The notes below the pieces were generated by a model. It worked only from the letters and a program-made list of their open reading frames with translations, did no database searches and was not told where the DNA came from. A DNA stretch of 64,000 bases from Xestospongia bergquistia. Its lineage: Eukaryota; Porifera; Demospongiae; Haplosclerida; Petrosiidae. The stretch covers positions 22,100,249 to 22,164,248 of the forward strand of contig OZ014411.1 of assembly GCA_963965975.1 (NCBI GenBank), read 5' to 3'. Positions 31 to 60,769 of this stretch are shown piece after piece (within the stretch, counting starts at the first letter, position 1; each line of letters starts with the position of its first letter). Made by a program: the position numbers and the translations under genes.

Positions 31-186
31 CACAATTATGAGTGACTTCATTATTTCCAATAAAATATCTTGGAGAGCAATCTGCACACTCATCAGGATA
101 ACAAACTGCATCAGGATAGTTAGTACAAACACTTCTATTACAAATATCTGAACTACATTTCTTGTTTGGTTGACCAAATGAACAGC
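31..186 (-). CDS. 8-Cys module exon (gene A, last exon in window)
   Basis: This 156-nt exon is flanked by a GTAAGG donor and a GTAG acceptor and is phase 1 on both sides. It encodes about 52 residues with eight cysteines, including C-x4-C, a central PDAVC, and a final THNC. This is the same cysteine pattern as the exons at 2414 and 2628, but more divergent: the usual CG-x-C has become CADC. It follows the Lys-type Kunitz exon of gene A. The rest of the gene lies to the left, outside the window. I do not recognise the module as a named family. Confidence 0.75.
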
Positions 187-285
187 CTACATTAAAATAA
201 CAAAATTAACCAGATATTAATTTGTTGAATACATGCATAGCAATCATCATAGTTATATAAATATTATTACAATATACAAACTTAC

Positions 286-444
286 CACAAAGATCAATGC
301 ACTCATTAAGAGTCTGAAATTGATTTCTATTTCCATGACAACCACCATAAATAAATAATTCACAATGACTTGAGCTAGCGTTATAAAACCAACGAGGAAA
401 TCTACCCTTACATGATCCAACTTTAGGAAGTAGATGACAAGTAG
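286..444 (-). CDS. Kunitz/BPTI domain exon, Lys at P1 (gene A)
   Basis: A 159-nt phase 1-1 exon encodes one complete Kunitz domain. The six cysteines show C-x8-C spacing to the second Cys, then YGGC and a closing C-x3-C. The residue after the second Cys (GSCKGRF) is Lys, the P1 position in BPTI, so a trypsin-like protease target is plausible. It lies 112 bp downstream of the IgGFc exon at 557-1882. Its partner in gene B is 20025-20183. The reading frame joins IgGFc through a split Ala codon. Confidence 0.88.
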
Positions 445-556
445 CTAGACAATTATATAATATTTATTTCTTATTCCATAAAGTAAACATATGTAAAAAA
501 TTAAATCATGTCATGTATTTGATAACCAATATATTCATTGCTTGCAAATTAATTAC

Positions 557-1882
557 CTTTACTTCTTGGAATGTTAATTGGATTTAACTTCATGCCTCCA
601 ACATAACTGTACCCTCCATAAGTTGTCCAGCCATAAACAGAGACACACAATTTACCATTTGGGTTAGGATGTGATATTGTATTGGTACCACTAAAAGATG
701 TTGAATAGCCATATCCATAAATTGAACCATCTGAAGCATATATTAGAACCCATGGTGGATTGGTAAGAATATTGTTGATCAATAAAGTCTGGTTAAAGTA
801 AGCATCATTTGGTACAACCACACTGTAATAACTAGCACTATGTGAAAGTAATGCGGAGAATTGAGTGGAATGTTCATATTGTTCTATTGGTGGCACTGTG
901 TTAAGAGAAGGGTCACCAAAATTACCACCATCATACCTTGTACTAACACCAATTTGAGCAACATAGATTGGTTGATCAGAAATAAAACTACAGTATACAT
1001 TGTTGTTTGTGTAAAACCATTTGGTGTTGTTTTCATTAAATTTGATATATTCAACAGTTTTATTTGTACCACAGGTTTTGACAGCATTTGTTTTATTGTT
1101 AGTAGCAATCACTTTGTAACTTTGTCCATTGTTTCGACCCATTTGAGGTGATAACAGAAATGTTTTCCCCCAAATTATTGTTGGTGTCAGTTGTGTAACA
1201 ATAGGGTCAACATCATATTTATCAGCTGGAACTCGGGCAGCTTCATGTCCACTGATAATTGTTAGTGGACTGTCTGATATAATTTTGGTTCCAGTAAGAT
1301 CAACACAAGGCTTAAAAACAAAAAATGTTTGAAGTGAATGAAGAATAAAATTGAAGGACTGTCCAGATGAAACAATTATATTATCAGCAGCACTCTCCTG
1401 GAGATCTGATGGAACAATAATGTCATTGTTTGGAATGATAGTCACATTACTGTTATTAAGGCAACCAATAATCATGAACTGACTTGTCTGATCACACAAG
1501 CCTAATGTAGACACGACATAGTACATGTATTGAGTTGTTGGTTGTTTATGACATGGAAGAGCTAGATAAGACATGAAATCTGAATGAGTACGATAGCTCC
1601 ATGCAATAACTGATATTGACTCTGAATCTAGAGAGTAAACTTTAAGACCCTTTCTCCTCCAGGAATAGCTATTATCTAACACTTCATAACTTGCTGGTAT
1701 GGTGACTTTATGAGGATTGTGATAACTAGCTTTACCCATATATGAGAAGTTGTTATCAAGTGATATGACTTTGAATGTAACAAGAGTTTTTTTCATAGTA
1801 TGAACATACAATATACGTTCTTTAGATCCATGTACATGTTCAAAGAATCCCACAATGAACTCATTACTGTATGTGCTAGGGT
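557..1882 (-). CDS. IgGFc-binding-protein-type domain exon A-2
   Basis: A single 1326-nt exon (442 codons, phase 1-1) encodes a domain of the type at the N-terminus of the IgG Fc-binding protein (FCGBP). Visible landmarks in order are a YEVLDN segment, SYLALPCHKQ, FMIIGCLNNSNVTIIPN, SPLTIISGHEAARVP, WGKTFLL, YYSVVVPNDAYF, GYGYS and SYVGGMKLNP. It is extracellular by family and has several N-x-S/T sites. It has extra cysteines (LGLCDQ, KLCVS) that its relatives lack. The start is a splice acceptor, not a Met. It is the second IgGFc exon of gene A, and its closest relative is B-2 (20255), of identical length. Confidence 0.9.
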
Positions 1883-2413
1883 CTATAATGTAACAAAATG
1901 TTTAGATTTATAGAAATGAAAAAGGTAATTACTAATATCAATTCTGACAAGCTGAATTTAAGATGTACTTAAATAGATATGTATTTAACAAAAATGTATT
2001 AAAATGTAATAAAAGAAAATGTAGGAATATCTGCAGTGTCATTATTTCATATAAAAACATTTTAATTCAGTAAATAATTTTTTGGGAAAAATTTATTAGA
2101 TTAATGATTCTGTGTGTTAAAACATTTCAAAGTAGGAATGTAATAAGGACATTCCAACATAGCAGCCATAGTATCAAGGCCATAATGTTTATTTACTGTA
2201 AAAGGAGTGAAAACTTTAAGGCAAATATTACCATAAGAACTATAAAGTAAAGGGTCTTCAACCAGTAAAATATAATTGTTTAAATAATTAAAGATATCTT
2301 GTTTAGTACTTGTGTATGTAAATATGTAGGTCCACATGGTTTAATGATAGCCACTTGTATAGTACAGGAAATTGTTTAAAAAGTGAAAGTTTTATTGCTA
2401 TTTCAGAACTTAC
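1883..2413 (-). other. Intron, 531 bp, shared between gene copies
   Basis: This intron joins the 8-Cys exon at 2414 to IgGFc exon A-2. It carries no open exon that I can support. The motif around TAGGAATG..AGGACATTCCA and the stretch ending GTCCACATGGTTT recur in the equivalent places in blocks B (21581-22108) and C (55859-56349, 58259-58879). Intron DNA was therefore copied along with the exons. Confidence 0.65.
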
Positions 2414-2572
2414 TGCATTGACTTGTCAAATCAGTTTCTCCAATTATAAACTTTGCCCTACATTGTCCACAGTTGTCAAGTACACATTGAGCATCAGGAA
2501 AATTAAAACAAGTTTGATGATCACAAGGATTATTAGGACAATATATTGGTTGTTTATCAGGAGGGCATGAAC
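2414..2572 (-). CDS. 8-Cys module exon, type 1 (gene A)
   Basis: A 159-nt phase 1-1 exon with a GTAAG donor. The encoded module opens GSCPPDKQP, then runs YCPNNPCD, CFNFPDAQC, and CGQC-RAKF, and closes with a Cys just before the donor. The eight cysteines and the central PDA-x-C motif define a module that sits between Kunitz and IgGFc exons in genes A and B. The gene B copy (22109) is almost identical. I cannot assign it to a named domain family. Being secreted and disulphide-rich is inferred from composition and neighbours. Confidence 0.78.
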
Positions 2573-2627
2573 CTAATAATATTAAATATTAAAGAATTGT
2601 TACAATTCTCCTTTAACAATAACATAC

Positions 2628-2792
2628 TGCAACTGTTTGTGATGTTGTGACCAGAAGTGTTAAAGAAATGAACTGAACATATACCACAACTTGATGGTAC
2701 ACATATAGCATCAGGTATGTTTGGACATATTACTGTGTCACATGGATTGTCTAGACATTGTCCCTCTTCAAGGTTCTTTTTGCACTCGTTAC
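2628..2792 (-). CDS. 8-Cys module exon, type 2 (gene A)
   Basis: A 165-nt phase 1-1 exon with a GTATGT donor and a CAACAG acceptor. The module reads NECKKNLEEGQC, LDNPCD, CPNIPDAIC, CG-x-C and closes NSC at the donor. It has the same eight-Cys pattern as type 1 but belongs to a separate sequence class, with copies at 22323, 56350 and 58880. It sits 55 bp upstream of the type-1 exon in transcription order, so the two are tandem duplicates that have diverged. Confidence 0.78.
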
Positions 2793-2882: not shown

Positions 2883-3041
2883 TACATTGTTGTAAACAGT
2901 TGTATAAAGTGTTAAAGTTGTTTTGGTTACCATCACAACCACCATATGTAAATTGCTGACATCTACCCACAACATAGTTATAATACCATCGAAGGACATT
3001 GTTAGTACATGGACCACTAACTGGTAACAACAAACAAAATT
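2883..3041 (-). CDS. Kunitz/BPTI domain exon, Thr at P1 (gene A)
   Basis: A 159-nt phase 1-1 exon encodes one full Kunitz domain. It begins EFCLLLPVSGPC, then LRWYYN, YGGCDGNQNNF and C-x3-C. The P1 position after GPC is Thr rather than Lys or Arg, so trypsin inhibition is not expected. All Thr-type copies share GPCTNN or GPCTKN. It follows IgGFc exon A-1. Confidence 0.88.
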
Positions 3042-3178: not shown

Positions 3179-4516
3179 TATTGCTTCTTGGAAGGTTAAT
3201 TGGATTTAACTTCATCCCTCCAACATAACTGTGCCCTGCATATTTTCTCCAACCATAGATAGATACATATAATTTACCATTTGGGTTAGAATGTGCTATT
3301 GTATTGGTACCGTTAAAAGATGATGAATAACCATATCCATAGACAGAACCATCTGAAGCATATATGAGAACCCATGGAGGATTGGTAAGAACATTGTTGA
3401 TCAATAAACTCTGGTTAAAGTAAGAATCATTTGGTACAACCACACTGTAATAACTAGTACTATTTGACAGCAAAGCAGAGAACTGGATTGAGTGTTCATA
3501 TTGTTCTATTGGTGGTATTGTGTTAAGGGAAGGGTCACCATAGTTGCCACCAGCATACCATGTACTAACACCAATTTGAGCAACATAGATTGGTTGTTCA
3601 GAGATAATACTACAGTATATATTGTTAGTTGTGTAAAACCAATTAATGTTGTTTTCATCAAATTCGATATATTCTGTTCTCTTATTTGTACCACAGGTTT
3701 TGACTGCATTCATTTTATTGTTAGTAGCAATCACTTTGTAACTTTGTCCATTGCTTCTACCCATGTGTGGTGATAACAAAAATGTCTTTCCCCATGTTGT
3801 TGTTGGTGTTAGCTGTGTAACAATAGTGTCAGCATCAAATGTCCCAGCTGGAACTCGGGCAGCTTCATGTCCACTGATAATTGTGAGTGGACTGTCTGAT
3901 ATAACTTTTGTTCCAGTAAGATCAACACAAGGTTTAAAAACTAAGAATGTCTGAAGTGAATGAAGAACAAAATTAAAAGAACGTCCAGCTAAGACAATTA
4001 TATTACCAGCTGTACTGTTCTGAGGATTTGATGGAACAGTAATGTCATTGTTTGGAATGATAGTCACATTACTGTTATTAAGGCAACCAATAATCATGAA
4101 CTGACTTGACTGATCACTCCAACATAATGCAGACACAACATAGTATATGTATTGAGGTGTTGGTTGTTTATGACATGGAAGAGCTAGATAAGACATGAAA
4201 TCAACCTCAGTACGGGAACTCCATGCAATAACTGATATTGGCTCTGAGTATAGAGAGTAAACTTTAAGACCCTTTCTCCTCCAGGAATAGGTATTATCTA
4301 ACACTTCATAACTTGCTGGTATAGCAACTTTATGAGGGTTATGATAATAAGTTGTACCCATATATGAGAAGTTCTCATCAAGTGATGTGACTTTGAAAGT
4401 AACAGGAGTTGTTTTCATAGTATGAACATACAATGCACGTTCTTTAGATCCATGTACATGCTCATAGAATCCTATAAAGAACTCATTACCATATGTGCTG
4501 AGGTCAATCTGTGGCT
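3179..4516 (-). CDS. IgGFc-binding-protein-type domain exon A-1
   Basis: A 1338-nt single exon (446 codons, phase 1-1) is the most 5' IgGFc domain of gene A. It carries the full landmark series, including SYLALPCHKQ, FMIIGCLNNSNVTIIPN, SPLTIISGHEAARVP, WGKTFLL and SYVGGMKLNP. It has the class I C-terminal variant with SIYGWRKYAGHS. The acceptor lies before EPQIDLSTY, so an upstream exon must supply the first base of that codon and presumably the signal peptide. I could not locate that exon. A frame that reads on past the donor into intron sequence is not coding. Confidence 0.9.
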
Positions 4517-7783: not shown

Positions 7784-7916
7784 CTCTGAGAAGACCTTTC
7801 AAAGTTAATAGTAGTTGACGTGGAGCAAATTGTGCAGCATTTAATATCCATCTATCCACAATGGACAAGAAACTATCGGCTACCTGCCTAGTACATGTAG
7901 TTGCAGCTTGAAAAAC
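7784..7916 (-). CDS. Stanniocalcin-like gene A, exon 3
   Basis: A 133-nt exon (phase 0 in, phase 1 out, GTATAT donor) encodes VFQAATTCTRQVADSFLSIV and a helical-looking segment ending TLKGLLR. The block B copy (27829-27961) has exactly the same length. In stanniocalcins the equivalent region follows the conserved Cys block and is largely helical. Confidence 0.65.
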
Positions 7917-7984: not shown

Positions 7985-8224
7985 CTGTTGAATTGCCTCT
8001 TCATTAAGAAAATCATTCAAGACAAAAACTTCAAAAGCAAGACAAATCAAGTTAGTGTCACTCAAAAGAATATCTGTACAAAATCCATTATCAGTATAAC
8101 AAGATTGATGACTATTGAAAGCAATTGTTTGCAATTGACTGCATGTTCCATTTGAGTTGTAGACAGTGCTATTCAAAGTGGCTTTCATAAGACAACTTTT
8201 CATGTTATTAATCCACGTTTGACC
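7985..8224 (-). CDS. Stanniocalcin-like gene A, exon 2
   Basis: This 240-nt phase 0-0 exon begins GQTWINNMKSC and ends EEAIQQ. Its cysteine spacing is the main evidence for the family call: C-x16-C-x13-C-x6-C in KSC...GTC...QSC...GFC. From what I know of vertebrate stanniocalcins, the matching cysteines are spaced about C-x15-C-x13-C-x6-C, after a GK-x-F-x-x-E-x-x-x-C start similar to this one. Stanniocalcins are secreted glycoproteins, and an N-S-T and an N-G-T sequon are present here. Overall identity is low, so the call rests on spacing and size. Confidence 0.65.
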
Positions 8225-8269: not shown

Positions 8270-8479
8270 AGCAGTTGTGAAACAACGTTCTTTATTTGTG
8301 AAATTGTGGCAGTATCCGTTACCATAGGCAAGAGGATATTCATTAGTATCACATTGAAATCTTGGCTCTACACACTGAGTATAGAAGTCACAGTTACCAT
8401 CATTAGCTAGAGCTGTACAATCCTGAGCTTTAACAGCAACTGTCAGAGTGAGTATTACTACAAATACGAGGAGCGTCAT
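8270..8479 (-). CDS. Stanniocalcin-like gene A, exon 1 with signal peptide
   Basis: A 210-nt coding exon starts at the first ATG. It opens with a clear signal peptide (MTLLVFVVILTLTVAVKA, cleavage probably after VKA) followed by QDCTALANDGNCDFY. Six or more cysteines follow in the mature N-terminus, and the exon ends FTTA at a GTAAGT donor, phase 0. With exons 2-4 the product is about 232 residues, close to typical stanniocalcin length. A TATA box lies about 40 bp upstream of the ATG. The gene sits upstream of modular gene A on the same strand, and the same arrangement recurs in block B. Confidence 0.75.
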
Positions 8480-15066: not shown

Positions 15067-15171
15067 CTAAAGTAACAGTTGGTGTAGACGTAGTTATAGA
15101 ACCACTAAAAGAAGATGAAAAACTTGCTGGAAGATGTGTGCTACCTGTGAAAGGGTATGGAATTTTAATTT
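15067..15171 (-). CDS. Ser/Thr-rich exon, Y type (gene B)
   Basis: A 105-nt phase 1-1 exon encodes 35 residues with no Cys: EIKIPYPF, STHLPASFSSSFSG, TTSTPTVTLG. It matches the Y class of gene C in length and pattern. Mucin-like O-glycosylation is inferred from the Ser/Thr/Pro content. It is the most 3' exon recognised in gene B. Confidence 0.7.
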
Positions 15172-15591
15172 CTGTATCCTCATAAAAATAGCTATCAATT
15201 GATAAATGTAACAATATAACTGATCAAAATTATCAGATCAGTGACTATATGTGTTACTACCCTTTAGGCTAGACCCTAAAATCAAATATTGGATGGATGC
15301 TGAGCTGTATGAAATAAATAAGTGTAACAAATTTTGTAAGGGCTTATTTCTGTATAGCAAAATTGACCAAAACTTCATGGCTAATACTTTGCATGAACTT
15401 ACATATGAACATGATATTACATATGAACTTTTAGGAAAAACCTTTATAATTATATAATAACTAAGTCAGAAATAATGAAAAAACTAAAGTTTGGTGAGAG
15501 AAAATGTGACTACAATAGTATTTGATTATTAAAAGCAATATAAATGAAATTATTTTGTAATGACAAGTACTCCAGAATAAAAATCTCTTAC

Positions 15592-15789
15592 TAAGTAAAT
15601 CAGATGGAGTTGGTGAAACTATAGGAAAGAAAGAAGAAGCAGGATGACAACCAATATCAGCTATATCACTACAACAATCATTCAAAATATGACAGTGTCG
15701 ATCACAGTTGCATCCATTATTGTTACAAGATGGTGACTGGGACTGTACACAGCAACCAGAATAGTTTAGATTAAGAGCCACACATGAAC
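15592..15789 (-). CDS. SMB-like exon S1 (gene B)
   Basis: A 198-nt phase 1-1 exon encodes a somatomedin-B-like module: GSC, YSGCC, SPSC, CNCDRHC, NDCCSDI, IGC. Eight cysteines with the CxC and DCC pairs match the SMB consensus, a small disulphide knot of secreted proteins such as vitronectin. The tail is Ser/Pro/Thr-rich and ends at a GTAAGAG donor. It is the most diverged unit of the array. Confidence 0.8.
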
Positions 15790-15841
15790 CTCAAATTAAA
15801 ATAATATGAACAAATTTATTTAATTTATAGTCCTCACTTAC

Positions 15842-16051
15842 CTGAAGTAACAGTTGGTTTATCTGTTGGAGTTGGTGAAAGTATAGGAGAGGAAGAAGAA
15901 GCAGGATGACAACCAATATCAGCTATATCACTACAACAATCATTCACAATATGACAGTGTTGATCACAGTTGCATCCATTATTGTTACAAGATGGTGACT
16001 GGGACTGTACACAGCAACCAGAATAGTTTAGATTAAGTGCCACACATGAAC
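15842..16051 (-). CDS. SMB-like exon S2 (gene B)
   Basis: A 210-nt exon of the 262-bp array. The module has NYSGCC, CNCDQHC, NDCCSDIADIGC and a linker ending SPTPTDKPTVTSG. The frame starts at a splice acceptor, not at the internal Met that replaces Leu in this subfamily (CVALN). Confidence 0.85.
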
Positions 16052-44873: not shown

Positions 44874-44908
44874 CTATATAAAAATAACAATAAAATTGAT
44901 ATGATGAA

Positions 44909-45095
44909 TGTGACGAACTTTGGACCTTATTAATACTTATATTGTGGTGTAAGCCCATATAACATTGTGTGTACTTAAACAGTTATTTTGGTCTATTTGC
45001 TCAGTTGTTGTCGTTATTTTTCTTTGTTCATAGTTTGTAGTTCATTGTTGGTTATCTTTTATATATTATTGACATATCTTAACTAGGTTACAACA
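44909..45095 (+). mobile_element. Extra LTR copy made by local duplication
   Basis: A 187-bp LTR lacking about 13 bp of the GTTGTCGTTG repeat present in the 3' LTR. The same host sequence follows both LTRs (GTTATTATAAAGTTTATAAAAG, then Y exon). The copy therefore arose by tandem duplication of LTR plus exon pair, rather than by a second insertion. Confidence 0.82.
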
Positions 45096-45152
45096 GTTAT
45101 TATAAAGTTTATAAAAGCTAAGACAAACGTATGATATGAGATTTTAACTTAC

Positions 45153-48100
45153 CACTTATGTAAGTTGAAATAGATGAAACCGTAGAATCACTTAAAGACG
45201 GTGAAGAACTCGCTGGAGGTTGTGTACTACTTTTCAAAATGAATGAACTTGTAATTTCTATGTCAAAAATAAACAAATTAAATTGATTATATATTATAAA
45301 TTTTATAAAAGTTATGACAAATGTATTGTATGATCTTTGATTTTATCTTACCAATTGCATCAGTTGGAGTTGGTTCAACTGTAGAATCACTTAAAGAAGG
45401 TGAAAAACTTGTTGAAGGAATTGCACTACTTATCAAAGGAGATGTAGTTAAAGACTCTGTCTCTATATAAAAATAACAATAAAATTGATATGATGCATGA
45501 GATAAATTGATCACAATTAGCACATCATTAACTAAATTTGTTACTATTTACTAATTAACTGTAAGGAAGAAGTCTTTAAAACTATATAATAATTATGATA
45601 GTATTAGCAAATAAAATAAATTTTGACTAGAATAAAATATAAATACATGTAATCTTAAATGTCAACATAAGAGAAATTATTTTGAGTTGACATGCAATCC
45701 AAAAGCTAATAAGAAATTATAAAATATATTTTACTTTATAACATTCCATATGTCAGAAATTTAAATAATGATTTAAGTTATAAATCATGCCTTAAAATAT
45801 AAAATATGCTGTTAACTAAAATCTGTTATTATACAATAATATTTTCAATTTTTATATAATATAACAATATTAATTTATTAAGAAAACGTTTTCTAATATA
45901 TTGAATAACCCTCTGATTTTATCTTACCAAATATGTCAGTTGGAGTAAGTGAAATTATAGAATCACTTGAAGATGGTAATAAAATTACTGGAGTATATGT
46001 ACTACTTTTCAAAATGAATGGACTTGTAATTTCTATGTCAAAAATAAACAAATTACATTGATTATATATTATAAATTTTATAAAAGTTATGACAAATGTA
46101 TTGTATAAACGATTTTATCTTACCAATAGTATCAGTTGGTATTGGTGAATATGTAGAATCACTTAAAGAAGGTGAAAAACTTGTTGGAGGAATTGCACTA
46201 CTTATCAAATGAGATGTAGTTAAAGATTCTGTCTCTATATAAAAATAACAATAAAATTGATATGATGCATGAGATAAACTGATCACAATTATCACATCAT
46301 TAACTAAATTTGTTACTATTTACTAATTAACTGTAAGGAAGAAGTCTTTAAAACTATATAATAATTATGATAGTATTACCAAATAAAAAAAATTTGACTA
46401 GAATAAAATATAAATACATGTAATCTTAAATGTCAACATAAGAGAAATTATTTTGAGTTGACATGCAATCTAAAAGCTAATAAGAAATTATAAAATATGT
46501 TTTACTTTATAACATTCCATATGACAGAAATTTTAATAATGATTTAAGTTATAAATCATGCCTTAAAATATAAAATATGCTGTTAACTAAAATCTGTTAT
46601 TATACAATAATATTTTCAATTTTTATATAATATAACAATATTAATTTATTAAGAAAACGTTTTCTAATATATTGAATAACCCTCTGATTTTATCTTACCA
46701 AATATGTCAGTTGGAGTAAGTGAAATTATAGAATCACTTGAAGATGGTAATAAAATTACTGGAGTATATGTACTACTTTTCAAAATGGATGAACTTGTAA
46801 TTTCTATGTCAAAAATAAACAAATTATATTGATTATATATTATAAATTTTATAAAAGTTATGACAAATGTATTGTATAAACGATTTTATCTTACCAATAG
46901 TATCAGTTGGTATTGGTGAAATTGTAGAATCACTTAAAGAAGGTGAAAAACTTGATGGAGGAATTGCACTACTTATCAAAGGAGATGTAGTTAAAGATTC
47001 TGTCTCTATATAAAAATAACAATAAAATTGATATTATGCATGAGATAAACTAATCACAATTATCACATCATTAACTAAATTTGTTACTATTTACTAATTA
47101 CCTGTAAGGAAGAAGTCTTTAAAATTATGTAATAATTATGATAGTATTACCAAATAAAATAATTTTTGATTAGAATAAAATATAAATATATGTAATCTTA
47201 ATGTCAACATAATGAAAATTACTTTGAGTTGACATGCAATCCACAAGCTAATAAGAAATTATCAAAAATATTTTTTTAATAACATTCCCAACATCAGTAA
47301 TTTTAATAATGATTTAAATTATAAATCATACTTTAAAATATAAAATATGCTGTTTACTAAAATCTGCTTCTATATAATAATATTTTTAATTTTATATAAT
47401 ATAACAATATTAATTTATTAAGAAAACGTTTTCTAATATATTGAATAACCCTCTGATTTTATCTTACCAAATATGTCAGTTGGAGTAAGTGAAATTATAG
47501 AATCACTTGAAGATGGTAATAAAATTACTGGAGTATATGTACTACTTTTCAAAATGGATGAACTTGTAATTTCTATGTCAAAAATAAATAAATTATATTG
47601 ATTATATATTATAAATTTTATAAAAGTTATGACAAATGTATTATATAAACTTTGATTTTAACTTACCAATAGTGTCAGTTGGTATTGGTGAAATTGTAGA
47701 ATCACTTAAAGAAGGTGAAAAACTTGTTGAAGGAATTGCACTACTTATCAAAGGAGATGTAGTTAAAGATTCTGTCTCTATATAAAAATAACAATAAAAT
47801 TGATATGATGCATGAGATAAACTGATCACAATTAGCACATCATTAACTAAGGTTGTTACTATTTACTAATTAACTTTTAGGAAGAAGTCTTTAAAACTAT
47901 ATAATATTTATGATAGTATTAGGAAATAAAATAAATTTTGACTAGAATAAAATATAAATACATGTAATCTTAAATGTCAACATAAGAGAAATTATTTTGA
48001 GTTGACATGCAATCTAAAAGCTAATAAGAAATTATAAAATATATTTTACTTTATAACATTCCATATGACAGAAATTTTAATAATGATTTAAGTTATAAAT

Positions 48101-51100
48101 CATGCCTTAAAATATAAAATATGCTGTTAACTAAAATCTGTTATTATACAATAATATTTTCAATTTTTATATAATATAACAATATTAATTTATTAAGAAA
48201 ACGTTTTCTAATATATTGAATAACCCTCTGATTTTATCTTACCAAATATGTCAGTTGGAGTAAGTGAAATTATAGAATCACTTGAAGATGGTAATAAAAT
48301 TACTGGAGTATATGTACTACTTTTCAAAATGGATGAACTTGTAATTTCTATGTCAAAAATAAACAAATTACATTGATTATATATTATAAATTTTATAAAA
48401 GTTATGACAAATGTATTGTATAAACTTTGATTTTATCTTACCAATAGTATCAGTTGGTATTGGTGAAATTGTAGAATCACTTAAAGAAGGTGAAAAACTT
48501 GTTGAAGGAATTGCACTACTTATCAAAGGAGATGTAGTTAAAGATTCTGTCTCTATATAAAAATAACAATAAAATTGATATGATGCATGAGATAAACTGA
48601 TCACAATTATCACATCATTAACTAAATTTGTTACTATTTACTAATTAACTGTAAGGAAGAAGTCTTTAAAACTATATAATAATTATGATAGTATTACCAA
48701 ATAAAAAAATTTTGACTAGAATAAAATATAAATACATGTAATCTTAAATGTCAACATGAGAGAAGTTATTTTGAGTTGACATGCAATCTAAAAGCTAATA
48801 AGAAATTATAAAATATATTTTACTTTATAACATTCCATATGACAGAAATTTTAATAATGATTTAAGTTATAAATCATGCCTTAAAATATAAAATATGCTG
48901 TTAACTAAAATCTGTTATTATACAATAATATTTTCAATTTTTATATAATATAACAATATTAATTTATTAAGAAAACGTTTTCTAATATATTGAATAACCC
49001 TCTGATTTTATCTTACCAAATATGTCAGTTGGAGTAAGTGAAATTATAGAATCACTTGAAGATGGTAATAAAATTACTGGAGTATATGTACTACTTTTCA
49101 AAATGGATGAACTTGTAATTTCTATGTCAAAAATAAACAAATTACATTGATTATATATTATAAATTTTATAAAAGTTATGACAAATGTATTGTATAAACT
49201 TTGATTTTATCTTACCAATAGTATCAGTTGGTATTGGTGAAATTGTAGAATCACTTAAAGAAGGTGAAAAACTTGTTGAAGGAATTGCACTACTTATCAA
49301 ATGAGATGTAGTTAAAGATTCTGTCTCTATATAAAAATAACAATAAAATTGATATGATGCATGAGATAAACTGATCACAATTATCACATCATTAACTAAA
49401 TTTGTTACTATTTACTAATTAACTGTAAGGAAGAAGTCTTTAAAACTATATAATAATTATGATAGTATTACCAAATAAAATAATTTTTGACTAGAATAAA
49501 ATATAAATACATGTAATCTTAAATGTCAACATGAGAGAAGTTATTTTGAGTTGACATGCAATCCAAAAGCTAATATGAAATTATCAAATATATTTTATTT
49601 TATAACATTCCCAACACCAGTAGTTTTAATAATGATTTAAATTATAAATCATGCATTAAAATAGAGAATATGCTGTCAAGTAAAATCTGCTATTACATAA
49701 TATTATTTTAATTTCATCATGAAAAGTAGATACAAACCATTTAGGTCAGATCTTGAGGATAATCCTGAGCCAGAAGCAAAATCTGTATGAAATAGTGCAT
49801 GCATATGAAATATAATTAATTAGTTTATTAAGAAAACTATGAATATTATAATGATTCATGATTTCTGGGAGAAACCAAATTGTGCATAAATATGAAATAC
49901 AAAAGTCTACCAAATTCTGTATTATTTATTAATTAAAATTAATGTATTGAGAAAAATTTGACTTCTGTATTAAATAAGTTTCAGACATTATCTTACCAAA
50001 TATGTCAGTTGGAGTAGGTGAAACTATAGAATCACTTGAAGATGGTAATAAAATTACTGGAGTATATGTACTACTTTTCAAAATGGATAAACTTGTAATT
50101 TCTATGCCAAAAATAAAGAAATTAAATTGATTACATATTATAAATTTTATAAAAGTTATGACAAATGTATTGTATGAACTTTCATTTTATCTTACCAATA
50201 GTATCTGTTGGTATTGGTGAAATTGTAGATTCACTTAAAGAAGGTGAAAAACTTGTTGGAGGAATTGTACTACTTATAAAAGGGGATGTAGTTAAAGATT
50301 CTGTCTCTATATAAAAATAACAATAAAATTGATAGGTGCATGAAATAAACTGATACAATTATCACATCATTAACTAAATTTGCTGTTATTTACTAATTAA
50401 CTTTTAGGAAGAAGTCTTTAAAACTATATAATATTTATGATAGTATTAGCAAATAAAATAATTTTTGACTAGAATAAAATATAAATACATGTAATTTTAA
50501 AAGTCAACATAAGAGAAATTACTTTGAGTTAACATGCACTCCAAAAGCTAACAAAAAATTTGCAAATATATTTTTTAAATAACAATCCCAACATCTGTAA
50601 TTTTAATAATGATTTAAATTAAAAATCATGCCTTAAAATATAAAATATGCTGTTAACTAAAATCTGCTACTATATAATAAAATTTTTAATTTTTTACAAT
50701 ATAACAATATTAATTTATTAGGAAAACTTTTCTAATATATTGAATAAACCTCTGATTTTATCTTACCAAATATGTCAGTTGGAGTAAGTGAAATTATAGA
50801 ATCACTTGAAGATGGTAATAAAATTACTGGAGTATATGTACTACTTTTCAAAATGAATGAACTTGTAATTTCTATGTCAACATGAACAAGATGATTATAT
50901 ATTATAAATTTTGAAAAAAATTTGACAATAGTATTGTATGAATTTTAATCTTATCTTACCAATTGGAGTTGGTTCAACTGTAGAATCACTTAAAGAAGGT
51001 GAAAAAGTTGTTGAAGGAATAGCACTACTTATCAAAGGAGATGTAGTTAAAGATTCTGTCTCTATACAATAAAATTGATATGATGCATGAGATAAACTGA

Positions 51101-51808
51101 TCACAATTATCACATCATTAACTAAATTTGTTGCTATTTACAAATTAACTTTTAGGAAGAACTCTTTAAAATTATATAATAACTATTATAGTATTAGCAA
51201 ATAAAACAATTTTTGACTAGAATAAAATATAAATACATGTAATCTTAAATGTTAACATGAGAGAGATTATTTTGAGTTAACATGCAATTCAAATGCTAAT
51301 AAGAAATTTGCAAATATATTTTTTAAATAACATTCCCAACATCAGTAATTTTAATATTGATTTAAATATAAATCATGCCTTAAAATATAACATATGCTGT
51401 TAACTAAAATCTGCTACTATATAATAAAATTTTTAATTTTTCATAATATAACAATATTAATTTATTAAGAAAACTTTTCCTAATCTATTAAATAAGAATC
51501 TCATTTTATCTTACCAATTGTATCAGTTGGAGTTGTTGAAACTATAGAATCACTTAAAGAAGGTGAAGAACTTGCTGGCGGACGTGTACTACTTTTCAAA
51601 ATGAATGAACTTGTAATTTCTATGTCAACATGAACAAATTAAATTGATTATATATTATAAATTTAAAAAAAAAAATGACAAAAGTATTGTATGAATTTTA
51701 ATTTTATCTTACCAATTAGAGTTGGTTCAACTGTAGAATCACTTAAAGAAGGTGAAAAACTTGTTGAAGAAATTGCACTACTTATCAAAGGGGACGTAGT
51801 TAAAGATT
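45153..51808 (-). CDS. Array of X and Y Ser/Thr-rich exons (gene C)
   Basis: Y exons (105 nt each) are at 45153-45257, 45928-46032, 46699-46803, 47468-47572, 48243-48347, 49017-49121, 49997-50101, 50767-50871 and 51515-51619. X exons are at 45352-45462, 46124-46234, 46895-47005, 47667-47777, 48442-48552, 49216-49326, 50196-50306 (111 nt each), 50960-51061 (102) and 51713-51808 (96). All are phase 1-1 with GTAAG donors and TAG or CAG acceptors, and all are open. Y reads EITSSFILKSST and ends SLTPTDIFG; X reads ETESLTTSPLISSAIPSTSF and ends PTPTDTIG or PIPTDTIG. There are no cysteines. A heavily O-glycosylated, mucin-like stalk is inferred. Confidence 0.78.
49738..49782 (-). CDS. Diverged Gly-Ser linker exon (gene C)
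   Basis: A 45-nt phase 1-1 exon with donor GTTTGT: DFASGSGLSSRSDLN. It is a relative of the GSG repeat exons at 18986 and 53741, with the repeat eroded. Confidence 0.45.
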
Positions 51809-52277: not shown

Positions 52278-52466
52278 CAGTTGGAGTAGGTGAAACTATA
52301 GGAGTGGAAGAAGTGGCAGGATAACATCCAATATCAGCTATATCACTACAACAAGTTTTCCAAATGTGACAATCTTGATGACAATAGCATCCATTATTGC
52401 CACAATTTGATGACTTGGACCTATCACAACATCCAGAATAATTGAGATTAAGTGCTAAACATGAGC
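52278..52466 (-). CDS. SMB-like exon (gene C)
   Basis: A 189-nt phase 1-1 exon with GSCLALNLNYSGCCDRSKSSNC, CYCHQDC and KTCCSDIADIGC. The usual DCC is TCC, but all cysteines are kept. The donor is GTAAAA. Confidence 0.8.
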
Positions 52467-52522
52467 CTAAGATTAACATAATAATTATGAATAAATTTAT
52501 TTAATTAATATTGCTCACTTAC

Positions 52523-52723
52523 CTTGAGGAGCAACTGGAGTATCAGTTGGAGTAGGTGAAAGTATAGGAGAGGGAGGATAACAACCAATATCAGCTATAT
52601 CACTACAACAATTGTCCCAAAGGTGACAGCTTTGATGACAATAGCATCCATTATTGTTACAAGATTGTGACAAGGATCTTTTACAACATCCAGTATAGTT
52701 GAGATTAAGTGCCAAACATGACC
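52523..52723 (-). CDS. SMB-like exon (gene C)
   Basis: A 201-nt phase 1-1 exon with NYTGCCKRSLSQSC, CYCHQSC, DNCCSDIADIGC and a linker ending SPTPTDTPVAPQG. Adjacent to 52278 with a 56-bp intron. Confidence 0.82.
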
Positions 52724-52775
52724 CTAAAATTAACATAATATGAATAAATTAATTTAATACATAATGATAGCTTAC

Positions 52776-53132
52776 CTGGAGTAACAACTGGTGTAGGTGT
52801 AGGTGTTGGAGTTTGAGATTCTGTGAATAAAAAATAAAAATAGCAATAAAAATTGATTTAATATAGGAGATAAACTGGTCACAATCATCACACCAATAAC
52901 TCAATATGTTACTATTTAACACATGAAATGTGACAACATAAGAGAAATTACTTCAAGATGAGATAATAAAAACATTACAACATAATAAAAAAAATATTAA
53001 TTTGCATTATGCTAATAACTGTTCACAAAAATGGAGTCTAAAATTAACATAATATGAACAAATTTAATTCAATTCATAATGATCACTTACCTGGAGTAAC
53101 AACTAATGTAGATGTAGATTGAGATATAGATT
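52776..53132 (-). CDS. Two short Ser/Thr exons (gene C)
   Basis: Exon 52776-52820 (45 nt, ESQTPTPTPTPVVTPG) and exon 53091-53132 (42 nt, ESISQSTSTLVVTPG) are both phase 1-1. They correspond to 17413 and 17787 in gene B but have lost their middle parts in frame. Confidence 0.62.
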
Positions 53133-53371
53133 CTGCATCAATATAAAAATGATTATAAAATTAATAAAATGTAAGAGAGAAACTGATCACAATCAGTAAC
53201 TAAAACGTTAGTATTTAACACATGAACTGTTAGGTAGAAATCTTTATAATATAATAATTATGTCAGAATTAGCAATAAAATTAATATTTAAATAAACTAA
53301 TATATTACTAGTGCATACACATGAAATAAAACTAATATAATATGAAAAATATTTTAATAGTCTTCATTTAC

Positions 53372-53428
53372 CTGGAGAAACAGTTGGTGTATGTGTAATT
53401 AAAGAGGATGAAAAACTTTCTTGTGTGT
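53372..53428 (-). CDS. Short Ser/Thr exon (gene C)
   Basis: A 57-nt phase 1-1 exon identical in sense to 18615-18671 in gene B. It lies inside a segment of about 490 bp that is nearly identical between the two genes. Confidence 0.68.
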
Positions 53429-53740
53429 CTGCATAAAAATGTAATTAAAATTGATATCATGTGAGAGATAAACTGATCGCAATTACATCAATAACTAAAT
53501 ACACATTAAACACACTTTTATTTTAAATATGAACTGTCAAGAGAAACCTTATAATGACTATGTCAGAATTTGAAAAAAAAATCTGCTAAACTAAAATATT
53601 ACTACTATATGATCTGATTATAACAGCAAATATAAGAGAAATTAGTTTGTCATGACATGTAATCCGAAAGCAAATAAGAGATTTTATTTCATAAGAATTC
53701 CCAACTTTAATAATTCAATAATGAAGAAATAGTCACTAAC

Positions 53741-53809
53741 CATTTAGGCCAGACCCTACACCAGATCCTACGCCAGATCCTACGCCAGATCCTAAGCCAG
53801 AGCCAGATC
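53741..53809 (-). CDS. Gly-Ser repeat linker exon (gene C)
   Basis: A 69-nt phase 1-1 exon: GSGSGLGSGVGSGVGSGV and on to GLN. It has one 12-nt repeat unit fewer than the 81-nt gene B copy, so the tetrapeptide number varies in frame. Confidence 0.7.
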
Positions 53810-53935
53810 CTGTACAAAAAGTGCATATACATAAAATATAGAATCTACCAAATTTTGGATTGAACATTAATTAATGTGAATTATTAAGGAAACTGTGACT
53901 ATAATGTATAGCATGAGCTTCTGATTTTGTCTTAC

Positions 53936-54133
53936 CGAGTACATCAGTTGGTGTAGGTGAAACTGTTGGAGAGGTAGAATAAGCAGGATGGCAACCAATA
54001 TCAACTATATCACTACAACAATCATTCCAAATGTGACAGTTTTTATCACAATAGCATCCTTTATGGTTACAAGGTGGTGACTCTTCCCATAAACAACATC
54101 CAGAATAATTGAAATTAAGTGCCAAACATGAGC
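53936..54133 (-). CDS. SMB-like exon (gene C, most 5')
   Basis: A 198-nt phase 1-1 exon: GSCLALNFNYSGCC, EESPPC, CYCDKNCHIWNDCCSDIVDIGC and a linker ending SPTPTDVLG. Confidence 0.82.
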
Positions 54134-54180
54134 CTAAATTTAATATAATATAAACAATTAATTTAATACTACTTGTTTAC

Positions 54181-54276
54181 CTGGAGGAACAGTTGGTGTA
54201 GGTGTAACTATGTAACTACTTAAAGAACTTGTTGGAAGATGTATACTAATTGTCGAAGGGGATGGAGTTCGAGATT
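54181..54276 (-). CDS. Ser/Thr-rich exon (gene C)
   Basis: A 96-nt phase 1-1 exon: ESRTPSPSTISIHLPTSS and a TPTPTVPPG end. It is the first linker after the last IgGFc domain, in the position where gene B has a Kunitz exon. Confidence 0.7.
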
Positions 54277-54520: not shown

Positions 54521-55858
54521 CATTTCTTCCTACAATGTTAATTGGATTTAATTTCATGCCTCCAACATAACTGTGCCCCGCATATTTTCTCCAGCCATAG
54601 ATAGAGACAAACAATTTACCATTTGGATTAGGATGTGCTACTGTATATGTACCACTGAAAGATGTTGAATAGCCATATCCATAGACAGAACCATCTGAAG
54701 CATATATTGGAACCCATGGTCGATTGGTAAGAATATTGTTAATCAATAAACTCTGGTTAAAGTAAGCATCATTTGGTACAACCACACTGTAATAACTAGT
54801 ACCACTTGACAGCAATGCAGAGAACTGGATTGAGTTTTCATATTGTTCTATTGGTGGCACTGTGTTAAGGGAAGGGTCACCATAGTTCCCACCAGCATAA
54901 TGTGTACTAACACCAATTTGAGCAACATAGATTGGTTGATCAGAGATAATACTACAGTATACATTGTTGGTTGTGTAAAACCAATTAGTGTTGTTTTCAT
55001 CAAATTTGATAAGTTCAACATTGTAATTAGTACCACAGGTTCTTACTGCAATTGTTTTATTGTTAGTAGCAATCACTTTGTAACTTTGTCCATTGCTTCG
55101 ACCCATGTGAGGTGGTAATAGAAATTTCTTTCCCCATGTTGTTGTTGGTGTGAGCTGTGTAACAATAGGGTCAGCGTCAGAAAACCCAGCTGGAACTCGG
55201 GAAGCTTCATGTCCGCTGATAACTGTGAGTGGACTATCAGATATAACTTTGGTTCCAGTAAGATCAACAAAAGGTTTAAAAACTAAGAATGTTTGAAGTG
55301 AATGAAGAACAAAATTAAAAGAATGTCCAGCTAAGACAATTATATTACTAGCTGTACTGTTCTGAGGATTTGATGGAACAGTAATGTCACTGTTTGGAAT
55401 GATAGTCACATTACTGTTATCAAGACAACCAATAATCATAAACTGACTTGTCTGATCGCTCCAACCTAATGTAGACACAACATAGTATGTGTATTGAGTT
55501 GTCGGTTGTCTATGACATGGAAGAGCTAGATAAGACATGAAATCAAACTGACTACGGGAACTCAATGCAATAACTGATATTGGCTCTGAGAATAAAGAGT
55601 TAACTTTAAGACCCTTTCTCCTCCAGGAATAAGTATTATCTAACACTTCATAACTTGCTGGTATAGCAACTTTATGATGATTGTGATAACTAGTGTTACC
55701 CATATATGAGAATTTGTCATCAAGTGATGTGACTTTGAAAGTAACAGGAGTTGTTTTCATAGTATGTACATACAATGTATGTATATTAGATCCATGTACA
55801 TGCTCATAGAATCCCACAAAGAATTCACTGCTGTATGTGCTGAGGTCAATCTGTGCCT
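54521..55858 (-). CDS. IgGFc-binding-protein-type domain exon C-3
   Basis: A 1338-nt phase 1-1 exon, the third and last IgGFc domain of gene C. Landmarks are complete. One usually conserved Cys is changed (KPFVDL), and EASRVPAGF replaces EAARVPAGT. The acceptor precedes EAQIDLSTY. It is followed directly by Ser/Thr and SMB exons with no Kunitz exon between. Confidence 0.9.
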
Positions 55859-56349: not shown

Positions 56350-56514
56350 TGCAAGTGCTTGTGACATTGTAACCAAATGTGTTAAAGAAATGAGCCGAAC
56401 ATAGACCACAACTTGATGATACACATATAGCATCAGGTATGTTTGGACATTGTGCTGTGTCACATGGATTGTCTAGACATTGTACCTCTTGAACGTCATT
56501 CTTGCACTTTACAC
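56350..56514 (-). CDS. 8-Cys module exon, type 2 (gene C)
   Basis: A 165-nt phase 1-1 exon: GVKCKNDVQEVQC, LDNPCDTAQC, PNIPDAIC, SCGLC, closing STC. The open frame that joins it to the Kunitz exon through the intron at 56515-56610 is by chance, since both splice sites are intact. Confidence 0.78.
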
Positions 56515-56610: not shown

Positions 56611-56769
56611 CACATTGTTGTAGACAGTTATATAAAGTTTCAAAGTTATTTTGGTTACCATCACAACCACCATATGTAAATTGCTGACATCTACCCACAG
56701 CATAGTTATAATACCATCGAAGGGCATTGTTAGTACATGGACCACTAACTGGTAACAACAAACAAGTGT
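56611..56769 (-). CDS. Kunitz/BPTI domain exon, Thr at P1 (gene C, second)
   Basis: A 159-nt phase 1-1 exon with CLLLPVSGPCTNNALRWYYN, YGGCDGNQNNF and C-x3-C. It lies between IgGFc C-2 and the 8-Cys exon. Confidence 0.88.
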
Positions 56770-56920: not shown

Positions 56921-58258
56921 CATTTCTTCCTACAATGTTAATTGGATTTAACTTCATGCCTCCAACATAACTGTAGCCTGCATATTTTCTCCAACCATAG
57001 ATAGAGACATACAATTTACCATTTGGGTTAGGATGTGCTATTGTTTTGGTACCACTAAAAGATGTTGAATAGCCATATCCATAGATAGAACCATCAAAAG
57101 CATATATTGGAACCCATGGTGGATTGATAAGAACACTGTTAATCAATAAACTCTGGTTAAAGTAAGGATCGTTTGGTACAACCACACTGTAATAATTAGT
57201 ACCACTTGACAGCAATGCAGAGAACTGGATCGAGTTTTCATATTGTTCTATTGGTGGTATTGTGTTAAGGGAAGGGTCACCATAGTTGCCACCATCATAA
57301 AATGTACTAACACCAATTTGAGCAACATAGATTGGTTGTTCAGAGATAATACTACAGTATACATTGTTAGTTGTGTAAAACCAATTGGTGTTGTTTTCAT
57401 CAAATTTTATATATTCTGTTCTCTTATTTGTACCACAGGTTTTGACTGCATTCATTTTATTGTTAGTAGCAATCAATTTGTAACTTTGTCCATTGCTTCT
57501 ACCCAAATGTGGTGATAACAAAAATGTCTTTCCCCATGTTATTGTTGGTGTCAGTTGTGTAACAATTGGGTCAGCGTCATTTGTCCCAGCTGGAACTCGG
57601 GAAGCTTCATGTCCACTGATAATTGTAAGTGGACTGTCAGATGTAATTTTTGTTCCAGTAAAATCAACACAAGGCTTAAAAATTAAAAATGTCTGAAGAG
57701 AATGAAGAATAAATTTGAAGGATTGTCCAGCTGAAATTTTTATATTACCAGCTGCACTGTTCTGAGGATTTGATGGAACAGTAATATCATTGTTTGGAAT
57801 GATAGTCACATTACTCTTATTATGACAACCAATAATCATGAACTGACTTGTCTGATTACTCCAACCTAATGTAGACACAACATAGTATGTGTATTGAGTT
57901 GTTCGTTGTTTATGACATGGAAGAGCTAGATAAGACATGAAATCAAACTGACTACGGGAACTCAATGCAATAACTGATATTGGCTCTGAGTATATAGAGT
58001 AAACTTTAAGACCCTTTCTCCTCCAGGAATAAGTATTATCTAACACTTCATAACTTGCTGGAATTGTGACTTTATGAGGATTGTGATAACTAGTTGTATT
58101 CACATATGAGAAGTTGCCATCAAGTGATGTGACTTTGAAATTAACAGGAGTCTTTTTCATAGTATGAACATACAGTGTACGTATATTAGATCCATGTACA
58201 TGCTCATAGAATCCCACGAAGAATTCACTGCTGTATGTGCTAGGGTCAATTTTAGACT
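56921..58258 (-). CDS. IgGFc-binding-protein-type domain exon C-2
   Basis: A 1338-nt phase 1-1 exon and the middle IgGFc domain of gene C. It has MIIGCHNKSNVTIIPN, where others have CLNNSN, a change shared with C-1. It ends with class I SIYGWRKYAGYS. The acceptor precedes ESKIDPSTY. Confidence 0.9.
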
Positions 58259-58784: not shown

Positions 58785-58845
58785 ATGAATAACGAAGATT
58801 ACTAGGATATATTGGTTGCTATTCAGTAGGACATTATTCTATTAT
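58785..58845 (-). pseudogene. Remnant of 8-Cys type-1 exon
   Basis: The stretch CTAGGATATATTGGTTGCTATTCAGTAGGACAT aligns with the 5' end of the type-1 exon in genes A and B (ATTAGGACAATATATTGGTTGTTTATCAGGAGGRCAT). The rest of the exon is gone. Type 1 was therefore present and then lost in gene C. Confidence 0.6.
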
Positions 58846-58879
58846 AAATATTCAAAAATTTTAAATTATTAATACATAC

Positions 58880-59044
58880 TGCAAATACTTGTGACATCGT
58901 GACCAGAAGTGTTAAAGAAATGAGCCGAACAGTAACCACAACTTGATAGTACACATATAGCATCAGGTATGTTTGGACATTGTGCTGTGTCACATGGATT
59001 CTCTAGACATTGTACCATTTGAACATTCTTCTTGCATTTTCTAC
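58880..59044 (-). CDS. 8-Cys module exon, type 2 (gene C, first)
   Basis: A 165-nt phase 1-1 exon: GRKCKKNVQMVQC, LENPCDTAQC, PNIPDAIC, SCGYC, closing SIC. It sits next to the decayed type-1 remnant. Confidence 0.78.
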
Positions 59045-59140
59045 CTATTGTAACATAGTGTTAAATTAAAATAACGTTTAAATATTTTTGATGAAATGAT
59101 TTCTGTTTCAAGTGAACGTTAACATGGCTAAAACACTTAC

Positions 59141-59299
59141 CACATTGTTGTAGACAGTTATATAAAGTGTCAAAGTTGTTTTGGTTACCATCACAACCAC
59201 CATATTTAAATTGCTGACATCTCTCCTCAGCATAGTTATAATACCATCGAAGAATATTCTTAGTACATGGACCCCTAACTGGTAACAACAAACAAATGT
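59141..59299 (-). CDS. Kunitz/BPTI domain exon, Thr at P1 (gene C, first)
   Basis: A 159-nt phase 1-1 exon: CLLLPVRGPCTKNILRWYYN, AEERCQQFKYGGC, NCLQQC. It is more basic than the other Thr-type copies. Confidence 0.88.
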
Positions 59300-59431
59300 C
59301 TACAGAAAATGCAATGAAATTGAATTGATAAGATCTAAAAAATAATTAATTTGCATTATGTTAATAAGTGTGTACAAAATTTTACAAATGCCATCCATCA
59401 TAGCCTGAATTTTGTAATGTAAAATAATTAC

Positions 59432-60769
59432 CATTGCTTCCTGGAATGTTAATAGGATTTAACTTCATGCCTCCAACATAACTGTGCCCTCCATAAGTTG
59501 TCCAGCCATAAATAGAGACAAACAGTTTACCATTTGGATTAGGATGTGCTACTGTATATGTACCACTGAAAAATGTTGAATAGCCATATCCATAGATAGA
59601 ACCATCTGAAGCATATATTGGAACCCATGGTGGATTGGTACTAACATTGTTGATCAATAAACTCTGGCTAAAGTAAGCATCATTTGGTACAACCACACTG
59701 TAATAACTAGTACCATTTAACAGCAAAGCAGAAAACTGTGTGGAGTGTTCATATTGTTCTATTGGTGGCACTGTGTTAAGGGAAGGGTCACCAAACTTGC
59801 CACCATTATACTGTGTACTAACACCAATTTGAGCAACATAGATTGGTTGATCAGAGATAATACTACAATATGTGTTGCTTGTTGTGTAAAACCAATTGGT
59901 GTTGTTTTCATCAAATTTGATAAGTTCAACATTGTAATTAGTACCACAGGTTTTTAATGCATTTGCTTTATTGTTAGCAGCAATCACTTTGTAACTTTGT
60001 CCATTGTTTCGACCTATGTGAGATGGTAATAGAAACATCTTTCCCCATGTTGTTGTTGGTGTCAGTTGTGTAACAATTGTGTCAGCATCAAAAGTCTCAG
60101 CTGGCACTCGGGAAGCTTCATGTCCACTGATAACTGTGAGTGGGCTATCAGATATAACTTTAGTTCCAGTAAGATCAACACAAGGTTTAAAAACTAAGAA
60201 TGTTTGAAGTGAATGAAGAACAAAATTAAAAGAATGTCCAGCTAACACAATTATATTACCAGCTGTACTGTTCTGAGGATTTGATGGAACAGTAATATCA
60301 TTGTTTGGAATGATAGTCACATTACTCTTATTATGACAACCAATAATCATGAACTGACTTGTCTGATCACTCCAACCTAACGTAGACACAACATAGTATG
60401 TGTATTGAGTTGCTGTCTGTTCATGACATGGAAGAGCTAGATAAGACATGAAATCATCCTCAGTACGGGAACTCCATGCAATAACTGATATTGGCTCTGA
60501 GTATAGAGAGTAAACTTTAAGACCCTTTCTCCTCCAGGAATAGGTATTATCTAACACTTCATAACTTGCTGGTATAGTGACTTTATGAGGATTGTGATAA
60601 CTGGTTGTACCCATATATGAGAAGTTCCCATCAAGTGATGTGACTTTGAAATTAACAGGAATCATTTTTTTAGTATGAACATACAGTGTACGTATATTAG
60701 CTCCATGTACATGCTCATAGAATCCCACAGAGAACTCACTGCTGTATGTGTTGAGATCAATCTGTGGCT
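59432..60769 (-). CDS. IgGFc-binding-protein-type domain exon C-1
   Basis: A 1338-nt phase 1-1 exon, the most 5' domain recognised in gene C. It has a class I N-terminal half but ends SIYGWTTYGGHS as in B-1. It has EASRVPAETFDAD. The acceptor precedes EPQIDLNTY, so a start exon is needed upstream, probably in 60,800-62,700, but I could not identify it. Confidence 0.9.

Follow-up and report, generated by a model that had tools for sequence, protein, structure and literature searches.

Tandem genes with IgGFc, Kunitz, 8-Cys and somatomedin-B-like exons in the sponge Xestospongia bergquistia: candidates for large secreted structural proteins

Introduction

The IgGFc domain is known from several animal secretions. 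The key component of a frog glue, PRIT, is described as a protein that combines IgGFc domains in tandem with disordered repeats (PMC11237159), FCGBP is described as belonging to the mucus scaffold, its covalent link to MUC2 being doubted (PMC9354016), and in the oyster IgGFc-binding proteins are reported from mucus and among larval adhesive candidates (PMC6337334). As for gene structure, the domain types that metazoan exon shuffling has used are all reported to be of class 1-1, and in extracellular modules of this class phase-1 introns split glycine codons (PMC8001218). Here we describe a window of 64,000 nucleotides (nt) from the sponge Xestospongia bergquistia (GCA_963965975.1; contig OZ014411.1, here C1, positions 22,100,249-22,164,248). 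We interpret it as part of a tandem cluster, with one gene (gene B) that has every module type recognised here, and portions of its neighbours A and C.

Like PRIT as described, the products of the cluster would be secreted, with tandem IgGFc domains and low-complexity linkers with predicted O-glycosylation, and VWD is absent from both (PMC11237159). Unlike them, PRIT has no Kunitz, 8-Cys or somatomedin-B-like (SMB-like) modules in the account of it given there, and VWD was lost in an amphibian gene lineage (PMC11237159); the linkers of the cluster are separate exons. FCGBP is, as the products of the cluster would be, a large secreted protein rich in cysteine with an IgGFc domain of ~450 residues towards its N-terminus but, as described, has one such domain and VWD-C8-TIL repeats (PMC9354016). 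Exon-shuffled proteins of class 1-1, as outlined in PMC8001218, have the same symmetrical phase 1-1 cassette modules and differ in the domain set only. We favour, with moderate confidence, a reading in which each unit of the cluster would be one gene for a large secreted structural protein of mucus, surface coat or adhesive matrix.

Results

A recurring unit with a three-exon leader

Profiles built from the window copies were run over 264 contiguous kb around the window. A recurring unit was found nine times on the minus strand (the leftmost is truncated by the region end). Every unit has a single set of three leader exons, after which come IgGFc-Kunitz-8-Cys cassettes and then a tail of SMB-like and Ser/Thr exons. 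Eight of the nine units contain one to three full-length IgGFc exons. The exceptions to the scheme are one unit with a broken IgGFc only and one with IgGFc but without Kunitz and 8-Cys exons.

The leader encodes a predicted signal peptide and a Cys-rich domain over three exons, whose introns are of phase 0, 0 and then 1. In all nine units the donor of exon 3 is of phase 1, which matches the acceptor of the IgGFc exon. A TATA-like box before the leader is conserved in 7/8 aligned units. A scan of leader exons 1 and 2 gave no Pfam or NCBIfam match. Leader exon 2 has 69 matches (gene B copy included) in the genome-wide searches, which covered 146.46 Mb in 21 contigs; the copy in unit E is frame-shifted. 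At C1:21,976,000-21,985,999 (L029, 1-10000) six leader copies lie 1.0-2.4 kb apart with little space for other modules, and an IgGFc fragment is present at 272-685 of that locus. The leader exons within the window (28552-27829 and 8479-7784) were absent from the sequence-only reading that preceded this work. With their phases of 0, 0 and 1 they limit its statement that the genes consist wholly of phase-1 exons, which stands for nearly all the module exons described below.

Module exons are symmetrical and of phase 1-1

All module exons of the window lie on the minus strand. The seven IgGFc, six Kunitz, seven 8-Cys and 14 SMB-like exons agree exactly with the counts made earlier, and the outer coordinates given then, 31 and 60769, are indeed exon ends. 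Constant lengths within each class had also been claimed. This is true of Kunitz (159 nt in 6/6) and nearly so of IgGFc (1338 nt in five, 1326 nt in two); the 8-Cys exons measure 165 nt (four), 159 nt (two) or 156 nt (one), and the claim fails for the SMB-like exons (162-216 nt, with 210 nt in 5/14). The Ser/Thr exons measure 78-111 nt. Splice sites were scored in all phases across the 264 kb region, after exclusion of matches covering <85% of their profile and of IgGFc matches below 500 bits. The best splice pair was phase 1-1 in 110 of the 115 module exons (18/18 IgGFc, 19/19 Kunitz, 21/22 8-Cys and 52/56 SMB-like); three of the other five have a phase-0 acceptor and two have no usable splice pair. 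For Ser/Thr exons, a scan of the window with strict thresholds, on both strands and in all phases, returned 24 of phase 1-1, none of phase 0 and one of phase 2 on the minus strand, and none in any of the three phases on the plus strand. This excess of phase 1-1 exons on the minus strand is far beyond chance. Eleven of these exons are 105 nt long and eight 111 nt, the remainder being 78-102 nt. As the scoring covered Ser/Thr exons only, the previous figure of about thirty Ser/Thr or Gly-Ser exons is not matched exactly. The class 1-1 rule and recent tandem duplication would lead one to expect phase 1-1 borders and a single length for each module, and the earlier proposal of secreted modular proteins encoded by symmetrical exons is supported.

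Two of the three Pfam families that had been proposed were recovered above their cut-offs. One IgGFc copy scored 143.2 bits against IgGFc_binding (PF17517; cut-off 25.6), a family with at least 132 matches above cut-off in the genome, mostly clustered (132 of 213 candidates scored). In a search for relatives of the whole IgGFc fold, TM-scores on the query did not exceed 0.16 among the 50 Foldseek matches listed. For one Kunitz copy the score was 70.8 bits against Kunitz_BPTI (PF00014; cut-off 21), which together with its six cysteines makes it a full member of the Kunitz/BPTI family; there are at least 150 matches genome-wide (150 of 201 candidates scored). The first SMB-like member reached 16.6 bits against Somatomedin_B (PF01033), below the cut-off of 23.1. 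Among SMB-like members 20/46 match this profile at E<=1 (best E 0.007), and the somatomedin B domain of vitronectin matches the SMB-like domain at E 0.17. By the alignment to vitronectin and by invariant columns, the last six of the ten SMB-like cysteines keep the somatomedin B spacing, with one residue fewer before the last cysteine; the ten cysteines and the score below cut-off set the SMB-like domain apart. Its structure model (mean pLDDT, the predicted local distance difference test score, 44.9) was unusable. SMB-like domains also occur at C7:2.22 Mb and C8:1.64 Mb, inside long open frames (<=496 codons) unlike the single-exon modules of the window. None of the 21 8-Cys members matched a Pfam family.

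A trypsin-type Kunitz inhibitor is expected to carry Lys or Arg at P1. Over the 19 Kunitz copies, P1 is Thr in 11 (type a) and Lys in seven (type b), and the position is lost in one. VWD, which with C8 and TIL forms the repeats of the FCGBP/zonadhesin family, had no match in C1:21.9-22.4 Mb, whereas the genome has 45 (60 of 60 candidates scored). At C2:8.58-8.76 and 9.17-9.67 Mb, IgGFc exons are interspersed with VWD exons and no leader exon is listed; these are FCGBP-like genes. The genome also contains a very large SRCR family (4312 candidates at first look, 150 scored) and gave no innexin match in a search whose controls gave none either; both would suit a demosponge.

IgGFc and SMB-like exons very probably belong to one gene

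At nine places the last IgGFc-type module is separated from the first SMB-like exon by 333, 387, 448, 511, 566, 691, 797, 1401 and 2963 bp, the longest gap being that of the unit with the broken IgGFc. From the SMB tail to the next IgGFc-type module the distance is 10-27 kb at seven places, each time with a new leader in between. The 333 bp gap of gene B contains one Ser/Thr exon and no AATAAA motif. Genome-wide, 139 IgGFc exons were considered, a lower bound. Forty-six have a leader exon within 30 kb, which in 46/46 lies upstream on the same strand; the other 93 have none within that distance and sit in other clusters. The closest pair among the loci read is 642 bp apart, counted from leader exon 3 (L031, C2:5.86 Mb). 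Given the short gaps between them, IgGFc and SMB-like exons are very probably parts of one gene; the upstream position of the leader, its phase-1 donor and the VWA relics described below speak for a link of leader and IgGFc.

Several observations weigh against reading each unit as one gene for a large structural protein. At three places an IgGFc-type module lies only 0.5-1.1 kb past an SMB tail without a leader, so that unit borders are blurred there. The 387 bp gap of gene A holds one AATAAA. A putative exon of eight codons and a stop follows leader exon 3 in 5/9 units, in 2/5 of the loci L031-L035 (L031 and L034) and in 2/6 of the L029 copies, and 42/69 leader copies, the dense set at C1:21.98 Mb among them, have no listed IgGFc exon before the next leader. 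No 3' terminal exon was found in any unit when the nine stretches past the last SMB-like exon were compared; in the listed parts of the long alignments, these show conserved, apparently non-coding blocks only. Since gene B has a donor at the end of the last Ser/Thr exon found, one further exon or more should come after it. Of five IgGFc structure models, one, all-beta with a mean pLDDT of 82.1, is in favour, and the other four were near 65. Finally, leader exon 2 is damaged in the C6 relative that has the VWA exon (see below).

The short stop exon and the many leaders without a listed IgGFc exon mean that some leader genes are possibly separate small genes. Taken further, they would suggest two alternating families: a small secreted leader protein of four exons with its own stop, and an IgGFc-Kunitz-SMB gene with an unfound 5' exon. 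No alternative signal-peptide exon with a phase-1 donor recurs upstream of IgGFc in eight units or in L031-L035. A strict scan of the eight units for a separate IgGFc signal-peptide exon gave one weak candidate in one unit; with looser thresholds, a signal-peptide-like start with a phase-1 donor was present in the leader-IgGFc interval of 0/5 of the loci L031-L035. Hydrophobic ATG frames in the intervals of L032-L035 lack a usable phase-1 donor, and a conserved block upstream of IgGFc, also considered as a first exon, is at least partly a relic of a C6-type exon. In addition, the leader lies upstream in 46/46 of the IgGFc exons that have one within 30 kb, and the exon-4 frame is not conserved in L032, L033 and L035. 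We consider two separate families unlikely. Both joinings may occur, giving a short secreted leader protein and a long mosaic.

IgGFc copies are under purifying selection

Ratios of nonsynonymous to synonymous substitution (dN/dS) were calculated pairwise by the Nei-Gojobori method (own script), and pairs with dS <=0.02 or without a computable ratio were dropped. The median for IgGFc was 0.39 (range 0.24-0.58; 0/153 pairs >1, none dropped), and these copies are under purifying selection. Kunitz exons had a median of 0.29 (6/133 pairs >1; 171 possible), 8-Cys exons 0.60 (11/129; 210 possible) and SMB-like exons 0.65 (249/1418; 1431 possible). Leader exon 1 gave 0.61 (6/36 pairs >1) and leader exon 2 gave 0.30 (0/28, the frame-shifted copy of unit E excluded). 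Such pairwise averages overlook selection at single sites, and the ratios are noisy where exons are short and conversion is recent.

These values bear on a second alternative, a diversified repertoire for immunity or self-recognition in which paralogous secreted receptors bind microbes or self ligands through their IgGFc or SMB-like domains. The abundance of mostly clustered IgGFc exons and the higher medians of the SMB-like and 8-Cys exons would suit it, and a receptor figure for the sponge Halichondria panicea includes IgGFc-binding among further domains (PMC8242945). Purifying selection on IgGFc weighs against a hypervariable recognition role, and neither a membrane anchor nor a transmembrane exon was found in the nine 3' stretches compared. 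The module order, moreover, is nearly fixed. We judge such a repertoire improbable. The fast-changing recognition protein envisaged in the sequence-only reading finds no support in the IgGFc ratios, although single sites escape pairwise averages and the ratios of the SMB-like and 8-Cys exons are higher.

Module order, duplication and decay of an older VWA module

The 8-Cys domains fall into position-specific types a, b and c, as the Kunitz domains do into a and b, which shows that the module order is old. This speaks against free reshuffling of the exon set, which had been proposed before; the three places with IgGFc after an SMB tail are exceptions. The IgGFc tree pairs those copies of units C and D that have the same position, and the copies of unit E and of unit G group within their own unit. 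We read the former as a recent whole-unit duplication and the latter as local duplication or conversion.

A relative on contig C6 (L030 3043-3870, minus strand; C6:1.18 Mb) has an open VWA exon (E 4.8e-19) after leader exons 2 and 3. Units A, C, D and H carry decayed VWA pieces between leader and IgGFc, and unit A and one other unit have pieces of the frame that comes after VWA in the C6 relative. To judge by the sequences, these relics mark an older gene body, and the C6 locus represents a second gene family with the same leader. In the reading that we favour, most of the diversity is due to duplication of whole genes and cassettes, with decay of the older VWA module. That the arrays are largely dead duplication relics is very hard to believe: there are decayed VWA exons, insertions of a retroelement and an inverted repeat, a broken IgGFc in one unit with fragments elsewhere and the frame-shift in unit E, but 18 IgGFc exons are full-length and open with splice sites, 18/19 Kunitz copies retain the cysteine before P1, and IgGFc, Kunitz and leader exon 2 have dN/dS values well below 1.

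Features of genes A, B and C

Coordinates are collected in Table 1. Between the Ser/Thr array and the last SMB-like exons of gene A lies a decayed retrotransposon antisense to the gene (42438-43145, plus strand; wider extent ~40.8-43.8 kb). Its reverse transcriptase (28.9 bits, slightly below cut-off) and RNase H pieces lie in different frames. The interval between genes A and B contains an inverted repeat (34181-34553, minus; 36667-37039, plus) with near-identical open frames of 92, 59 and 61 codons, which looks like part of a mobile element. A lone short IgGFc fragment in the same interval (34577-34672, minus; E 2e-11) is a relic of another copy.

Table 1. Features of the cluster, in window positions unless C1 is given.
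Feature	Position	Strand	Remark
Gene B, whole extent	28552-15067	-	leader to last Ser/Thr exon found
Gene B leader exon 1: ATG, predicted signal peptide, start of Cys-rich domain	28343..28552	-	TATA-like box ~40 nt upstream
Gene B leader exon 2, phase 0-0	28058..28297	-	
Gene B leader exon 3, phase-1 donor G/GTAT (slash, exon border)	27829..27961	-	
Gene B putative short alternative terminal exon, 8 codons + stop	27688..27713	-	same ending in 5/9 units
Gene B IgGFc exon 1	22886..24223	-	
Gene B Kunitz type a (P1 Thr)	22575..22733	-	
Gene B 8-Cys type a	22323..22487	-	
Gene B 8-Cys type b	22109..22267	-	
Gene B IgGFc exon 2	20255..21580	-	
Gene B Kunitz type b (P1 Lys)	20025..20183	-	333 bp to first SMB-like exon
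Gene B SMB-like tail, 9 exons (15592-15789 ... 19497-19691)	15592..19691	-	
Gene B tail Ser/Thr exons	17413-17517, 17787-17885	-	
Gene B tail Gly-Ser open frame	18984-19127	-	
Gene B last Ser/Thr exon found, with its 5' border at either 15144 or 15219	15067..15219	-	ends in donor
Gene C leader exon 1, predicted signal peptide	8270..8479	-	
Gene C leader exon 2	7985..8224	-	
Gene C leader exon 3, phase-1 donor	7784..7916	-	
Gene C decayed VWA piece	5330-5491	+	
Gene C IgGFc exon 1	3179..4516	-	
Gene C Kunitz type a	2883..3041	-	
Gene C 8-Cys type a (2628-2792) and type b (2414-2572)	2414..2792	-	
Gene C IgGFc exon 2	557..1882	-	
Gene C Kunitz type b (P1 Lys)	286..444	-	
Gene C 8-Cys type c	31..186	-	SMB-like tail 511 bp further, left of window
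Gene A leader exons	C1:22,168.5-22,169.3 kb	-	right of window, ~5 kb outside
Gene A decayed VWA exon, leader-to-IgGFc interval	62772..63125	-	
Gene A further decayed VWA piece, same interval	62208-62261	+	
Gene A decayed piece of the frame that comes after VWA in the C6 relative	61769..61831	-	
Gene A IgGFc exon 1	59432..60769	-	
Gene A Kunitz type a, first	59141..59299	-	
Gene A 8-Cys type a, first	58880..59044	-	
Gene A IgGFc exon 2	56921..58258	-	
Gene A Kunitz type a, second	56611..56769	-	
Gene A 8-Cys type a, second	56350..56514	-	
Gene A IgGFc exon 3	54521..55858	-	387 bp to first SMB-like exon
Gene A Ser/Thr exon (54181-54276) and SMB-like exons (53936-54133, 52523-52723, 52278-52466)	52278..54276	-	
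Gene A Ser/Thr array of 20 exons, in which lengths of 105 nt and 96-111 nt alternate	44564..51808	-	
Gene A last SMB-like exons found (39790-39951, 39362-39556)	39362..39951	-	

Discussion

In the structural protein that we favour, the signal peptide and Cys-rich domain of the leader would open the secreted chain. Next would come one to three IgGFc domains as rigid, all-beta binding or cohesive units, in most cases with Kunitz and 8-Cys domains after them. The Cys-rich domains may serve as disulphide-stabilised spacers, and the Kunitz domains may protect the matrix against proteases, with Lys at P1 in type b only. In the tail of 10-Cys SMB-like domains and short Ser/Thr linkers, the linkers would provide O-glycosylated, extensible segments. 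The sequence itself shows the identity of the IgGFc and Kunitz modules, the phases, order and spacing of the exons, the position of the leader and purifying selection. We infer a single transcript per unit, secretion, O-glycosylation and inhibition; the role in mucus or an adhesive matrix is suggested by analogy with the animal secretions described above. The family is best read as lineage-specific.

A bolder and distinctly speculative extension, to which we give little credence, is that recombination has put one shared leader cassette before several bodies, with VWA on one chromosome and IgGFc-Kunitz-8-Cys-SMB on others, and that a mucin- or glue-like multigene system has so been built independently in a non-bilaterian. 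Alternative splicing at the phase-1 donor of the leader would then yield either a short secreted leader protein or a giant protein of the matrix, and the copy number of the exon arrays would differ between individuals.

The exon rule is textbook, and the module combination seems to be new, as the sequence-only reading had supposed: in the open-licence literature we found no description of the IgGFc-Kunitz-8-Cys-SMB-like combination, of the leader or of the 8-Cys domain. If our interpretation is true, tandem IgGFc domains with disordered linkers would have arisen with another module set in an animal distant from frogs, and the IgGFc domain would be a general building block of animal secretions. 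The cluster would then also be a compact locus in which the birth of class 1-1 modules by duplication, and their death in the form of VWA relics, can be seen directly.

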